Notes under the pieces: model-generated | Databases searched by the model: none | Told to the model about the DNA's origin: nothing | What the model saw: only the letters and a program-made list of their open reading frames with translations | Part shown: one piece after another, positions 16,888-22,224 of the stretch | How the letters are laid out: each line of letters opens with the position of its first letter | How positions within the stretch are numbered: position 1 is the stretch's first letter | Source: Bacteroidota bacterium | GTDB lineage: Bacteria; Bacteroidota; Bacteroidia; Cytophagales; Cyclobacteriaceae | Reading direction: 5' to 3' | Assembly: GCA_022571715.1 (NCBI GenBank) | Contig: JACZXH010000036.1 | Location: forward strand, 1 to 36,939 | DNA length: 36,939 nucleotides | Translations under genes and position numbers: made by a program

Positions 16888-17955
16888 CTATATTTTGTCA
16901 ACACCGAGCCCTGGTTTTCCATTGGGCATCATATAGCCGTCTTTGAGAATAAATCCACCTTTTACTGCATCTTTGGCCATATCAAGGCTGCCATCCAGAT
17001 CAATGTATTTTGTGTTAGCAGAGCTAAATGCTACATGCAAACCAGCAGTAATGCTTACGATGCTTTCGTCGTTGCAACCCCACATCAAATCAATACCGGC
17101 ATTTTCAGCAATTACAGCAATCTTTCTGGCCTGGTAAATTCCTCCGCATTTCATAAGTTTAATATTGAAAATGCCACTTGCACGGGGCGGTGAAGCCAGA
17201 TGGAATGCATCTTCTGGTGTAACCAGGCATTCATCGGCAGCCACCGTGTCCTTGATTTCATCAGGTAACGCTTTCATTTCATCAATCTGATCTGCAGGTA
17301 AGGGTTGTTCGTTTAACTCAATATCCAGTTTGGCAGTCTGATGAAAAAATTGTTTCAGGTCTTCTACAGAATAGCCCTGGTTGCAATCAATCCTGATTTT
17401 GGGCTTATATCCGAATTTTTCCCGCAATTTCACAAGGCGTTCCACATCTTCATCCACACTTTTCCCCAACTTTACTTTCAGGATACTGAACCCATCGGCA
17501 AAATAATCCCGGGCTTCTTCAAGTGTTTCTTCCACATTTTTAATACCGATAGTAATCGATGTAGCCATTTTTTCGATTTTCTGGCCAAAATATGATACCA
17601 GAGGAATTCCCAGATGCCGGGTGAACGCATCATGGAGTGCAATGTCTGCTACAGTTCGGATTCCTGGGCTTTGGGGAAATTTGTCAACGAGTACCTGACA
17701 GAGGGCAGGTGTTTCATGGATATTACAGCCAATCAAATAGTCCAGCATACCTTCGCTGAGTTTTGTATGCACATCAGCAGTAGATTCACCCACCACATAT
17801 GGACTTGGATTTGCTGATCCAATACCGGTAATTCCATTTTCAAGACTAATCTCAAAAAATACGACTTCTACCTCATCAACAGTTTTATACGAAATGGTAT
17901 ATGGTCGTGTGTTGCCCATGTCCTGCTTCCAGTAGTCAATTGCCTTTATTTTCAT
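16888..17955 (-). CDS. Enolase-superfamily dipeptide epimerase / DgcA-like N-acetyl-D-Glu racemase
   Basis: The 355-residue protein has the muconate-lactonizing-enzyme-type layout. The Lys pair is ILKVKLG (Lys160 and Lys162), the metal ligands are Asp190 (RIDCNQGYS), Glu216 (NEQPL) and Asp241 (AADECL), and the second catalytic Lys is 266 (NIKLMKCGG). A late DLD (residues 319-321) matches the DxD motif that binds the free amino group of dipeptides in Ala-Glu epimerases. It lies 20 nt after the DUF1611 gene and is surely cotranscribed with it. The same pairing occurs in the DgcN-DgcA D-glutamate pathway, where the enolase partner racemises N-acetyl-glutamate. The DxD motif favours a dipeptide epimerase and the context favours DgcA; the sequence alone does not decide. 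No signal peptide, so cytoplasmic. Confidence 0.88.
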   Translation of the reverse strand: MKIKAIDYWKQDMGNTRPYTISYKTVDEVEVVFFEISLENGITGIGSANPSPYVVGESTADVHTKLSEGMLDYLIGCNIHETPALCQVLVDKFPQSPGIRTVADIALHDAFTRHLGIPLVSYFGQKIEKMATSITIGIKNVEETLEEARDYFADGFSILKVKLGKSVDEDVERLVKLREKFGYKPKIRIDCNQGYSVEDLKQFFHQTAKLDIELNEQPLPADQIDEMKALPDEIKDTVAADECLVTPEDAFHLASPPRASGIFNIKLMKCGGIYQARKIAVIAENAGIDLMWGCNDESIVSITAGLHVAFSSANTKYIDLDGSLDMAKDAVKGGFILKDGYMMPNGKPGLGVDKI

Positions 17956-17975
17956 TTACACTATTTATAATGATA

Positions 17976-19040
17976 TCATTTGTATTTGTCGATTTCTACT
18001 TTTAATACCCCGTACAATTTCTCCACTCCTTCTTCCAACGGCAAAACAACAGGTATCCCTAGCTCATCTTCATATTTCATTTGCCATTTTTTTGTCTGCT
18101 CTGGAGAGATTCCCGCCGTGTTCAAAGCTAGTCCGATTGTAGGTGCTCCAAGAATCCGAATCAATTCTATTTCCTCTTTTGCAGTAGGCAGGTTGTCAGG
18201 ATAATCTTCCATGTCCTTGAACTTGGTTCGTTCCGGATTCAGGATCAGGATCACGGCATCGGCGTTAGCCGAAATAATGAACTCCGATCCGCACGGACCA
18301 CTTGGATTACGCAATCCAGACTGCCCTTCAAGAAAAATAATATCCGGATTTTCATTTCGGTAACACTTTAGAATTGCATTTTCCAGTTCTCCGGATACAA
18401 AATCATTAGGTGTGGAATCAAAAATAAATCCATAATTATTACCCATCATCCATCCTGTCTGACCGGTATAAACCATATGTGCATTATGCCCATGATCCCG
18501 CATCATATTCCGTAGAAACATTGCTGCAGTTCGTTTTCCCAATGCACAATCAGTTCCTAAAACAGGTATTTTAGGTGTCAATATGTCTTTGATCTCTCCG
18601 GTCCAGAAAGCAAGTTCGGAAGCTGGTCTGGGTTTGCGAATATCGATAATTTCGACCCCATGTTTTTTTGCAAGCACAGCAAATTCCTCATCGTTTGCCA
18701 CATAATGATGCAATCCGCTAATAATACCCATTCGGTTTTGCAGCGCTTCTTTAATAATCGGCCTGAATTCACCCGGTATCACACCCCCCTTCGTGGCTAC
18801 ACCTATAATGCAGAAATCCGCAGGCTGTTTTGCTTCTTGCATGTATGCTTTTATCGAGGCATATATCATGATACCCCGGTTACGACCATCTATTATTTCG
18901 CCCGCATCCTGCCCGACAAAATTTTGATCAATCACGCCAGTGATCTTAAATCTCTCAGACCCCCTGATCAACCCGTGAGCTGTTTTGGCATGAATATCAT
19001 CTAATAATCCGGCAGTAAGGATGACTGCATTTTGTTGCAT
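17976..19040 (-). CDS. DUF1611 family P-loop protein, DgcN-like (putative D-glutamate N-acetyltransferase)
   Basis: The 354-residue cytoplasmic protein matches the DUF1611 family throughout. The N-terminal Rossmann-like half (about 1-150) includes ITGVIDQNFVGQDAGE and FCIIGVATKGG. The C-terminal half starts with a P-loop-like GTDCALGKRT at residues 162-171 and continues with VYTGQTGWM and FLEGQSGLRNPSG. Members of this family were shown to be DgcN, which N-acetylates D-glutamate before the enolase-family partner racemises it; assignment here is by family and by the adjacent epimerase. It is the first gene of the pair, transcribed leftward. Earlier annotations call it NAD-dependent epimerase-like, which is poorly supported. 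Confidence 0.85.
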   Translation of the reverse strand: MQQNAVILTAGLLDDIHAKTAHGLIRGSERFKITGVIDQNFVGQDAGEIIDGRNRGIMIYASIKAYMQEAKQPADFCIIGVATKGGVIPGEFRPIIKEALQNRMGIISGLHHYVANDEEFAVLAKKHGVEIIDIRKPRPASELAFWTGEIKDILTPKIPVLGTDCALGKRTAAMFLRNMMRDHGHNAHMVYTGQTGWMMGNNYGFIFDSTPNDFVSGELENAILKCYRNENPDIIFLEGQSGLRNPSGPCGSEFIISANADAVILILNPERTKFKDMEDYPDNLPTAKEEIELIRILGAPTIGLALNTAGISPEQTKKWQMKYEDELGIPVVLPLEEGVEKLYGVLKVEIDKYK

Positions 19041-19279: not shown

Positions 19280-20062
19280 TTGAAAAAAATAACCTTACTT
19301 CTTCTCCTGCCTGCATTTCTGTTAAACGCCTTATATGCTCAGGATAAAAACGCAGCTTTGTTTTTCTATACTACTGATTATACACTTAATCAGGACAAAT
19401 CATTTCTGGATTTTCAGACTAACTCTATCAAGGACGATCTGATGTTTACCTATGGTTTCCGGGCATCTTCTTATAAAAATTATTCAAAAATTAATTTCAT
19501 AAACAGCATTTCTAACGAATGCGCTGCTGATACCAGTAATGCAACCAAGCAACTATTTATTTACATTGCCGGTATAAGTGCCAGAGATGATGCAGGAAAC
19601 GGGTACCTGATTCTGTCTGAATCCGATTCACTTGCATACGACCAGATGATCTCATTTAATGATATCGCTAATTTGTTAAGTAACTGCCAGGTTCAGCACC
19701 TGCTTTTATTTATGGATGTACCTTATTCGAGCAGCATAAAAAACGATATCAAAACTAATATTACCGAAAACCTGTTTCCAAATGATTCTATTCCAAGAGC
19801 CGAACTTATATCTTCTAAATTCAAATTAAAAGCCAGCTACTATATTGCCAGTAGTGATAATACTGTCTCAACCATTGGCCGTTCAAGATTTTCACCCCTG
19901 TCAAGTAAATTGTTGGAGGCCTTCCGGAATTATGGTGACGGAGATGATGTAATAACCATGTATGAACTGAATGGATATATGCAGATGCTTAAAGCCATTC
20001 CTGAAATGAGTGTATTTGCGGTTCACAAATCCGGCGGCGATTTCCTCTTTATTGTGAAGTAA
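19280..20062 (+). CDS. Secreted caspase-fold (C14-like) protein with both catalytic residues replaced
   Basis: The only plausible start is the TTG at 19280, since a stop lies in frame at 19259-19261 and a signal peptide (MKKITLLLLLPAFLLNALYAQ) begins there. The 260-residue product follows the caspase/metacaspase order: AALFFYTTDYTLN (first strand), a helix with FLDFQTNSIKDDLMFTYGF, FIYIAGISARDDAGNGYLIL, ISFNDIANLL, and HLLLFMDVPYSSSI. In active members these last segments read FAGHG (catalytic His) and DxCYSG (catalytic Cys). Here they read AGIS (Ile99) and DVPYSS (Pro148), so both residues are gone. It is probably a pseudo-protease with a binding or scaffolding role. It stands alone on the plus strand between the DUF1611/epimerase pair and the M14 peptidase. 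Confidence 0.72.
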   Translation: MKKITLLLLLPAFLLNALYAQDKNAALFFYTTDYTLNQDKSFLDFQTNSIKDDLMFTYGFRASSYKNYSKINFINSISNECAADTSNATKQLFIYIAGISARDDAGNGYLILSESDSLAYDQMISFNDIANLLSNCQVQHLLLFMDVPYSSSIKNDIKTNITENLFPNDSIPRAELISSKFKLKASYYIASSDNTVSTIGRSRFSPLSSKLLEAFRNYGDGDDVITMYELNGYMQMLKAIPEMSVFAVHKSGGDFLFIVK

Positions 20063-20126: not shown

Positions 20127-21548
20127 TCAATATCTGTATGTCAATCCGTTTTTTACACCAAATCCTGCAGTGGAAGAATTAACCACAAACCCATTTACAA
20201 TGATATGCTTGACTACAAGCTCATCCATTACAATAAAATCTGCAGGTCCTTCTGGTATTATTTTAAAATCCGCTGATTTCACTTTTCTTCGATGGACTAA
20301 ATTAACCGGATAATCACAAAAGGGTCTGGTTAGTATTGCATCATCTACCACTACCGAAGTGTATCCGTTTTTCAAAATAATATCAAAATCTGCACGTTCC
20401 AATTCCTCTTGTGTTTCAAATCGGTATGGATAACTTTTACCCGCTTTTACTTTCATCCCGTTTACATCCAGCTCTTCGTATCCATAATAGAGCGCCATGT
20501 CTCCCATATCCTCAATGAAACTTCTGAAATAAAAGTCATTGGAATCATTGTAATTTTCTTCTTCCCTGTTAATCCCTATATCCACTTTAAATTCTTTTCC
20601 AGCAATTTCGATCACTGCATTTCTTATCAACAAATCAAAAAACCGGTCTTTAATATTGTAGGGAATGGAATCATACGGGTGATTTGTACTTATCCGGTAA
20701 GCGTCATGTGCAATTGCATCAAACGATGCCAACAGTAACGCAAAATTAAGTTTTCGTAAATATTCTTTCTCACCATCACCCGGATATCCCCCTGATTCAA
20801 TCAGAATCGTGCTTGTACCCCACTTCTGAATGTTGTCGCCAAATGCACGAGGATTAAATGTATCATCATATCTGCCTACATGGCCAGGAATAATTTTTTG
20901 AAGCAGGTTGTTCATGTAACTAATTATAGCCATAGCGTTTTCACGCTGAGTATTGATCTCTTTAGCATAGTTATATGCAGGTGCAAGAAATGAAATGGAA
21001 GCGGGAAAAGGTGAATCCCCTGCAGAATAGTATAGACTCTGATCGTGCATATTAAATCCGAAATCAGGATGGAATCTATCTATTACTTTTTTCAAAATCC
21101 TTGCTTCCGGTGTCTGAAGTTTTATAGCATCTCTGTTTATATCGATGCCCTGTACGGTACGCCGTTGAAACAGGTTTGCTCCATCCGGATTAAGAACCGG
21201 TATAAAAATCAAAGTTACTTTTTTGAAAAGATCGTTACGGATTTCATTAAAATCATCATCGGAAATAAGAAAATTCCATACATCGAGCATGGCTCTTGTA
21301 GCTGTTGACTCATCGCCGTGCATCTGTGACCAAAGCAGGATTCTTACATCCCCCTGTCCCCATTGAATTAAAAAAATTTCTCTTTCTTCAAATGAATATC
21401 CAACTTTTTCGACGCAAAACCGTTGATTGTTCGTAATGTTATTTATTACAGAAATAATCTGTTCATATTTAATTCTTTTTGTAGTAATGGCAGAATGATG
21501 ATATCTTTGATATGCATCAAGTAATTTAAAAAAAAATTCTTTTTTCAT
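20127..21548 (-). CDS. M14 family zinc carboxypeptidase
   Basis: This 473-residue protein has no signal peptide. The M14 site is complete: HxxE as HGDE (His77, Glu80), the substrate-binding DINRD (Asn138, Arg139), the third zinc ligand in FNMHDQ (His168) and the catalytic Glu in ILIESGG (Glu251). The context resembles the succinylglutamate desuccinylase / murein-peptide amidase side of M14 rather than digestive carboxypeptidases. Residues about 262-473 lie outside the catalytic domain and are unusual; they end with PADFIVMDE and KHIIVNGFVV, similar to the last strands of amidohydrolases. The start codon lies only 7 nt from the start of the divergent DUF4159 gene. Confidence 0.85.
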   Translation of the reverse strand: MKKEFFFKLLDAYQRYHHSAITTKRIKYEQIISVINNITNNQRFCVEKVGYSFEEREIFLIQWGQGDVRILLWSQMHGDESTATRAMLDVWNFLISDDDFNEIRNDLFKKVTLIFIPVLNPDGANLFQRRTVQGIDINRDAIKLQTPEARILKKVIDRFHPDFGFNMHDQSLYYSAGDSPFPASISFLAPAYNYAKEINTQRENAMAIISYMNNLLQKIIPGHVGRYDDTFNPRAFGDNIQKWGTSTILIESGGYPGDGEKEYLRKLNFALLLASFDAIAHDAYRISTNHPYDSIPYNIKDRFFDLLIRNAVIEIAGKEFKVDIGINREEENYNDSNDFYFRSFIEDMGDMALYYGYEELDVNGMKVKAGKSYPYRFETQEELERADFDIILKNGYTSVVVDDAILTRPFCDYPVNLVHRRKVKSADFKIIPEGPADFIVMDELVVKHIIVNGFVVNSSTAGFGVKNGLTYRY

Positions 21549-21555
21549 TAGGTGT

Positions 21556-22224
21556 ATGGATAACCGGTTGCCAAAAATACTTTTTTCAGTATTAATTACA
21601 TTAATTTCTTTACAGGCATTATCGCAGGAAAGCCTGAAAATTGCAAAACTTAAATATCATGGCGGTGGGGACTGGTATGCCAATAAAACCGCATTGCCTA
21701 ATCTGATCAGGTTTTGCAATCAGGAACTGAACATGAACCTTGCACCTACTGAGGAAATTGTAGACGTTGGGAGCTCCGAACTTTTTCTTTACCCCTACAT
21801 TTATATGACGGGGCATGGCAATGTAATATTTTCGGATCAGGAGGCAGAAAATCTAAGAGATTACCTTATTTCAGGGGGCTTTCTTCACATTGATGATAAT
21901 TATGGTCTGGATCAGTTTGTCAGGCTGGAAATGAAAAAGGTATTTCCTGAACTTGAGTTTATTGAGCTGCCCTTCAATCATCCCATCTATCATCAGAAAT
22001 TCCATTATTATAACGGATTGCCGAAAATTCATGAACATGATGGGAAGCCCCCACAGGGCTTTGGACTCATTTATGAAGGCCGGCTTGTATGTTTTTATAC
22101 CTACGAGTGCGATCTTGGCAACGGTTGGGAAGATCAGGTGATATATAATGATCCTGATGAGAAAAGGCAACAAGCATTAAAAATGGGAGCCAATATCATT
22201 GCTTATAGCTTTACCATTTTTTAG
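21556..22224 (+). CDS. DUF4159 domain-containing secreted protein
   Basis: The 222-residue protein has a signal peptide (hydrophobic run to about residue 22, LQALSQE). The remainder is a DUF4159 domain: IAKLKYHGGGDWYANKTALPNLIRF, YPYIYMTGHGNV, LRDYLISGGFLHIDDNYGLD and LPFNHPIYH are typical. The fold resembles class I glutamine amidotransferase-like (ThuA-like) proteins. Family function is not established, and these proteins appear in Bacteroidota often near other envelope genes. It is divergent from the M14 peptidase with only 7 nt between the start codons, and it is followed 53 nt later by the desaturase gene. Confidence 0.87.
   Translation: MDNRLPKILFSVLITLISLQALSQESLKIAKLKYHGGGDWYANKTALPNLIRFCNQELNMNLAPTEEIVDVGSSELFLYPYIYMTGHGNVIFSDQEAENLRDYLISGGFLHIDDNYGLDQFVRLEMKKVFPELEFIELPFNHPIYHQKFHYYNGLPKIHEHDGKPPQGFGLIYEGRLVCFYTYECDLGNGWEDQVIYNDPDEKRQQALKMGANIIAYSFTIF

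Follow-up and report, generated by a model that had tools for sequence, protein, structure and literature searches.

A caspase-fold protein with a predicted signal peptide has lost both catalytic residues and remains under constraint in one Bacteroidota genus

The window analysed here is a stretch of 36,939 nucleotides from a 3.47 Mb genome in 136 contigs. At 19280–20062 on the plus strand it carries an open reading frame of 260 aa with a TTG start, which we describe as the gene for a candidate exported caspase-fold pseudopeptidase. Orthologues are also found in Flammeovirgaceae bacterium SZUA-230 and Bacteroidetes bacterium B34T3L8, and the TTG start is common to all three. Upstream of this start the frame stays open for 16–47 codons in the three species. 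The gene has its own 239-base upstream gap and lies between genes for a DUF1611 protein (17976–19040, minus strand; DgcN-like, below that model's cut-off) and an M14-family carboxypeptidase-like protein (20127–21548, minus strand), on the strand opposite to both. Next to the DUF1611 gene is one for an enolase-superfamily, epimerase-like protein (16888–17955, minus strand; below the equivalog cut-offs), and next to the M14 gene one for a DUF4159 protein (21556–22224, plus strand).

Residues 1–20 of the window protein (19280–19339, plus strand) read as a signal peptide that ends in LPAFLLNALYA and is followed by QDK, with likely cleavage before Gln21; what remains is a single domain. Gln21 is kept in 3/3 orthologues, after LYA in the window protein and one orthologue (L036) and after VYA in the other (L037). 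According to PMC5837995, most signal peptidase I substrates of Bacteroidetes carry Gln directly after the cleavage site (the Q-rule). We infer from this N-terminal fit that the protein is exported, as the first-pass annotation had proposed.

That annotation had also described a caspase fold in which the catalytic His and Cys are both lost, and all the motifs it named are present: AGIS (Ile99), DVPYSS (Pro148), FIYIAG, NGYLIL and HLLLFMD. The former His codon (codon 99, 19574–19576, plus strand) encodes Ile in the window and Leu and Met in the orthologues, while the former Cys codon (codon 148, 19721–19723, plus strand) encodes Pro in 3/3. By comparison, the 23 non-orthologues of a 26-sequence alignment without exception read HG around the catalytic His and DxC around the Cys. 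Asp146 (19715–19717, plus strand), two positions ahead of the former Cys, is kept. Codon 46 (19415–19417, plus strand), by motif the first acidic residue of the S1 pocket, encodes Gln in all three orthologues, in a column that is Asp in 144/146 active homologues (2 gaps); the equivalence of column 46 and Asp146 to TbMC2 Asp95 and Asp211 is drawn by motif, not by structure.

Across 59 genomes (its own and relatives), the window protein matches intact caspases over residues ~24–260, with a best E of 1.2e-24. It scores 14.5 bits against Peptidase_C14 (PF00656), below the 21.4-bit cut-off, while a protein of the matched type (L004) reaches 60.5 bits; of the orthologues, L037 scores 17.5 bits and L036 gives no match. 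Against caspase_w_EACC1 (NF047832) the window protein scores 24.5 bits, below the 140-bit cut-off. Because its Pfam score is below the cut-off, surveys based on such cut-offs can miss this protein. Searching the sequences of solved structures with the three orthologues returned only unrelated enzymes at E 0.4 or worse; the same search with active homologues recovered metacaspases and caspases weakly (best E 3e-4). Judged by sequence, the window protein belongs to the caspase/C14 fold and is dead as a Cys-His peptidase.

A wider survey, seeded with the pseudopeptidase and thus leaning to its relatives, aligned 185 stretches, of which 17, cut or split, have no letter at one or both catalytic columns. 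Among the other 168, 160 (some places counted repeatedly) are His/Cys. Five of the remaining eight rows are the three orthologues, two of them fetched twice, and three are His/Val rows from another genus (g68). A match was found in 104 of 390 genomes of the same GTDB family, where the genus's three genomes score 568.8–571 bits and the next best 95.0. Given this gap, the orthologue is seen in this genus only.

A structural model was built from four sequences (mean pLDDT 59.6, pTM 0.61); among viral-contig relatives sought for a deeper model, one was usable (L064) and further scans added none. It superposes on the yeast metacaspase Yca1 (4f6o) with Z 10.7 and rmsd 2.9, and the 129 aligned residues fall within positions 1–158 of the model. 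Of the 50 structural matches listed, 49 carry a title naming caspase, ICE or metacaspase; the other is an uncharacterised Geobacter protein (3bij). With Foldseek, the first 24 matches are MALT1 paracaspase, and metacaspase 9 and caspase-11/-4 appear lower down. Ten-residue blocks have pLDDT of 55–87 to about residue 130, and values are mostly below 50 after model residue 137, in the p10-like half; no surface can therefore be drawn. The superposition on caspases is carried mainly by the first ~130 residues. The model thus supports a p20-type alpha/beta sheet with strands in caspase order and, with the full-length homology, bears out the proposed fold for the p20 half.

Two cysteines are new in this lineage. 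Cys81 (codon 81, 19520–19522, plus strand) and Cys136 (codon 136, 19685–19687, plus strand) are the only cysteines of the mature protein; both are invariant across the three species and each is found in 0/146 active homologues. In the model they sit at the ends of helices preceding two strands, and in caspase topology these helices share one face of the sheet. A Cys81–Cys136 disulfide is therefore plausible, as far as the model goes, and perhaps present.

The orthologues in the three genus genomes found are 86–87% identical, with the same start and length and no indels. Their pairwise dN/dS values are 0.106, 0.197 and 0.133 at dS 0.33–0.71, a measure of constraint that rests on three orthologues. 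In the same species the M14 neighbour gives similar values of 0.153, 0.185 and 0.139, DUF1611 0.079–0.085 and DUF4159 0.050–0.093. Intact orthologues and dN/dS of 0.11–0.20 rule out a pseudogene. The annotation had kept a degenerate gene as a possibility, which finds no footing in the three genomes, where the gene is intact.

We then asked how far the loss extends. At the 67 columns in which at least 90% of 146 distinct active homologues share one residue, the three orthologues keep 27, have lost 38 in all three and are mixed at 2; active homologues lose 3.3 of the 67 on average, with a maximum of 45 in the most deviant one. The 38 losses include the Asp of the NPVxDA motif (Gln46), and other conserved columns changed in all three are 99–100, 148–152, 186, 190, 192, 193, 196, 197, 199 and 202. 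Fold-core positions are kept. With 38/67 conserved columns changed in every one of the orthologues, the loss extends beyond the dyad. The annotation's view of a specific active-site loss without general decay thus holds for the absence of decay, given intact frames under constraint, but not for the narrowness of the loss.

A tree of 50 rows, reduced from 153, places the three orthologues in one clade with a stem of 2.54 changes per column and end branches of 0–0.08, and the g68 His/Val rows in a separate clade with a stem of 1.76. The backbone of this tree is unresolved, its bootstrap is unsettled and the program gave a warning of long branches meeting; the nearest active sister of the window clade was not recovered from it. 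Within these bounds, the branch lengths show a past burst of change on the stem followed by constraint, and the losses in the window genus and in g68 likely had separate origins.

The present constraint is uneven. Columns 96–104 and 144–156, fixed as the former site before the control comparison, differ between orthologues at 7, 8 and 9 of 22 columns (24/66), versus 31–37 of 238–239 overall; 10/22 of these columns vary versus 48/239 (hypergeometric P 0.004). Among active homologues, 38 independent pairs (78–93% identity) differ in the same columns at 54/836 positions versus 1239/8882 overall, with a maximum of 6/22 per pair. Relaxation at the old catalytic site is robust, and with former-site dN/dS of about 0.20, 0.91 and 0.16, all below 1, the site changes faster than the rest yet keeps some constraint. 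The inter-subunit linker region (residues 161–185, 19760–19834, plus strand) is nearly invariant, with 1, 2 and 1 differences in 25 columns between orthologues versus 202/856 in the 38 active pairs. These columns were picked after viewing the alignment and 3/38 active pairs also show only 1 difference, so the case for a newly constrained linker is only suggestive.

Inactive caspases have been described in bacteria before, so the class is not new; the first-pass annotation had held that a secreted bacterial one beside peptide-processing genes would be of interest. According to PMC6426788, 858 of 9,994 bacterial orthocaspases are pseudo-orthocaspases; 90% of those described are in Cyanobacteria and Alphaproteobacteria, and in Bacteroidetes they number 10 of 1,078 sequences. 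Like them, the window protein has a caspase p20 fold without the His-Cys dyad and falls in a conserved clade. The dyad itself differs: YS, YN, YA, FS, QC and HA are the common substitutions in that account, versus Ile/Leu/Met with Pro in the window lineage. The pocket differs as well. There the two acidic specificity residues are given as highly conserved, though not defining; here Asp146 is kept and the other residue is, by motif, Gln. Also unlike those described pseudo-orthocaspases, the window protein consists of a signal peptide and a caspase domain only, has two new cysteines and scores below the Pfam cut-off. We therefore regard it as an unusual, far-diverged version of this known kind, and its lineage may be among the ten Bacteroidetes cases. 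As for function, deletion of the Synechocystis pseudo-orthocaspase SyOC is reported in PMC7889975 to raise oxidative-stress tolerance. The annotation had pointed to inactive caspase homologues as regulators in eukaryotes, and the human pseudo-caspase FLIP(L), which according to PMC7586951 is dead and acts by pairing with an active caspase, is such a case. FLIP(L) and the window protein are both dead caspase-fold proteins, but FLIP(L) is an animal protein with death-effector domains, and pairing is only proposed here.

The active relatives offer a possible context. Active exported C14 proteins such as L004 (398 aa) share with the window protein caspase-domain homology along its full length, a signal peptide and the GTDB family. 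They differ from it in having His and Cys, an extra N-terminal region of ~130 residues and usually a gene for type IX secretion system (T9SS) cargo just upstream. In 27 of 33 loci of active homologues with frames of 370–440 aa and enough upstream sequence (L004, L010, L012, L033 and others), the nearest upstream same-strand frame matches TIGR04183 (T9SS type A sorting), with E of 0.01 or lower counted as a match, 4.1e-11 as the best value and the first member's score below the cut-off (19.7 versus 23); Pfam PF18962 also matches 27/33. As a control, a profile made from the 33 upstream tails recovered all 33 of its own rows and 0 of 34 tails taken from upstream of DUF1611 and M14 genes. We read the arrangement as a likely cargo-caspase pair.

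The g68 caspases (L237:5330-6541, L238:5533-6765 and L239:1047-2438), which belong to the same GTDB family, resemble the window protein in that the catalytic Cys is lost and the frames remain open and conserved. They differ in that His is kept, Cys is replaced by Val, the N-terminal region is kept, a cargo gene lies upstream and they form a separate clade. All three are immediately preceded by a giant T9SS cargo gene, which scores over the cut-off (32.7–41.6 bits). Their N-terminal region is Ig-like by weak, sub-cut-off Pfam matches; that of L004 gives no match. In the window's own genome, 18 T9SS type A sorting domains score over the cut-off, one of them just upstream of an active paralogue on contig C38, and none lies on the contigs of the four other caspases (C66, C88, C85 and C10). 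Another caspase gene of the window genus (L232:1228-2631 and L134; G001 C20, and G000 C117, where the contig end cuts it) is followed by a gene that, by eye, resembles one for a papain-like (C1) peptidase.

With the catalytic residues gone and the gene kept intact in close relatives, the window protein probably binds rather than cuts. The explanation we favour, and hold to be probable, is a neofunctionalised exported pseudopeptidase kept by selection for a non-catalytic role in which it binds a partner. It would be secreted to the periplasm, stapled there by the Cys81–Cys136 disulfide, and would bind its partner through a surface of the linker and second half. Most likely that partner would be an active exported caspase from the same protein family, or the surface-protein cargo of such a caspase, and the window protein would regulate or scaffold processing instead of cutting. 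The C38 paralogue is active and has a signal peptide, which may place a same-family partner in the same compartment; this signal peptide (by eye LYG before Q) also contains LLAC, and the paralogue could thus be a lipoprotein. PMC12914765 describes metacaspases as monomeric, which weakens a model of pairing. The protein has lost catalysis and, judged by motif, one side of the acidic pocket, yet it remains under selection and has gained two cysteines; the fold thus appears to have been re-used for another task outside the cytoplasm.

It is tempting to speculate further, at long odds, that in Bacteroidota exported caspases are dedicated partners of T9SS surface proteins and that dead forms arose at least twice, in the window genus and in g68, as a partner role such as cargo binding or escort needs no cutting. 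The window protein would then be a free-standing, disulfide-stapled regulator, an extracytoplasmic counterpart of FLIP. Among the literature matches listed we found no published account linking exported caspases to T9SS surface proteins, and the sole match naming both 'type IX secretion' and 'metacaspase' treats, by its title, Candida/Porphyromonas biofilms. If the link holds, bacterial exported caspases gain a testable job other than cell death.

Several other readings are less probable. The protein could be a substrate trap that binds peptides through the old cleft as an active caspase would, either shielding them or competing with active exported caspases. Asp146, acidic and kept in 3/3, fits such a trap, as does the acidic pocket that cyanobacterial pseudo-orthocaspases retain according to PMC6426788. 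Yet column 46, acidic by motif, is Gln in 3/3, family-conserved columns (99–100, 148–152 and the 186–202 set) changed in all three orthologues, and the former site is the fastest-changing part tested, so we consider a trap unlikely. Invariant polar residues near the cleft (Ser100, Asp103, Asp146 and Ser191) might instead point to an enzyme with different chemistry on the same fold. This seems quite improbable: Pro, which offers no nucleophile, occupies the former Cys position, the residues after it vary (Y/N/Y, S/A/S, S/D/N and S/S/I) and the segment as a whole is relaxed. Least probable is gene decay, in which a former caspase would be in the course of being lost. The very long stem branch, the TTG start and the absence of the N-terminal region of active homologues would suit decay, but the stem shows only a past burst, and intact genes of constant start and length in the three genomes, their low dN/dS and the two shared new cysteines lead us to reject general decay as the present state.

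Lastly, the gene could serve the surrounding D-amino-acid and dipeptide catabolism genes, given that DUF1611 and M14 flank it in each of the three species, and the first-pass annotation had noted its place next to peptide-processing genes. Against this, it is on the opposite strand to both with its own upstream gap, and in two other genera (L233 and L234) DUF1611 and M14 adjoin with nothing between them. L233 even has the row epimerase–DUF1611–M14–DUF4159 as in the window, without the caspase (DUF4159 named by eye). At E 1e-4 the pseudopeptidase has no match around the DUF1611 gene in 27 loci from other genera, within flanks that reach 1.5 kb at most and are shorter at some loci, which suggests that the gene probably entered this place in an ancestor of the genus and does not belong to the neighbours' operon. 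By eye, the DUF1611, epimerase-like and M14 proteins have no signal peptide, so their compartment would differ from that of the window protein; DUF4159 seems to have one. We find a functional link to the neighbours unsupported and this role improbable, and return to the partner-binding pseudopeptidase as our preferred explanation.

M14 lies upstream of DUF1611 in 2/27 loci, those of the same two genera, and the compact row of epimerase, DUF1611 and M14 genes in L233 and L234 is perhaps devoted to D-glutamate or muropeptide breakdown.
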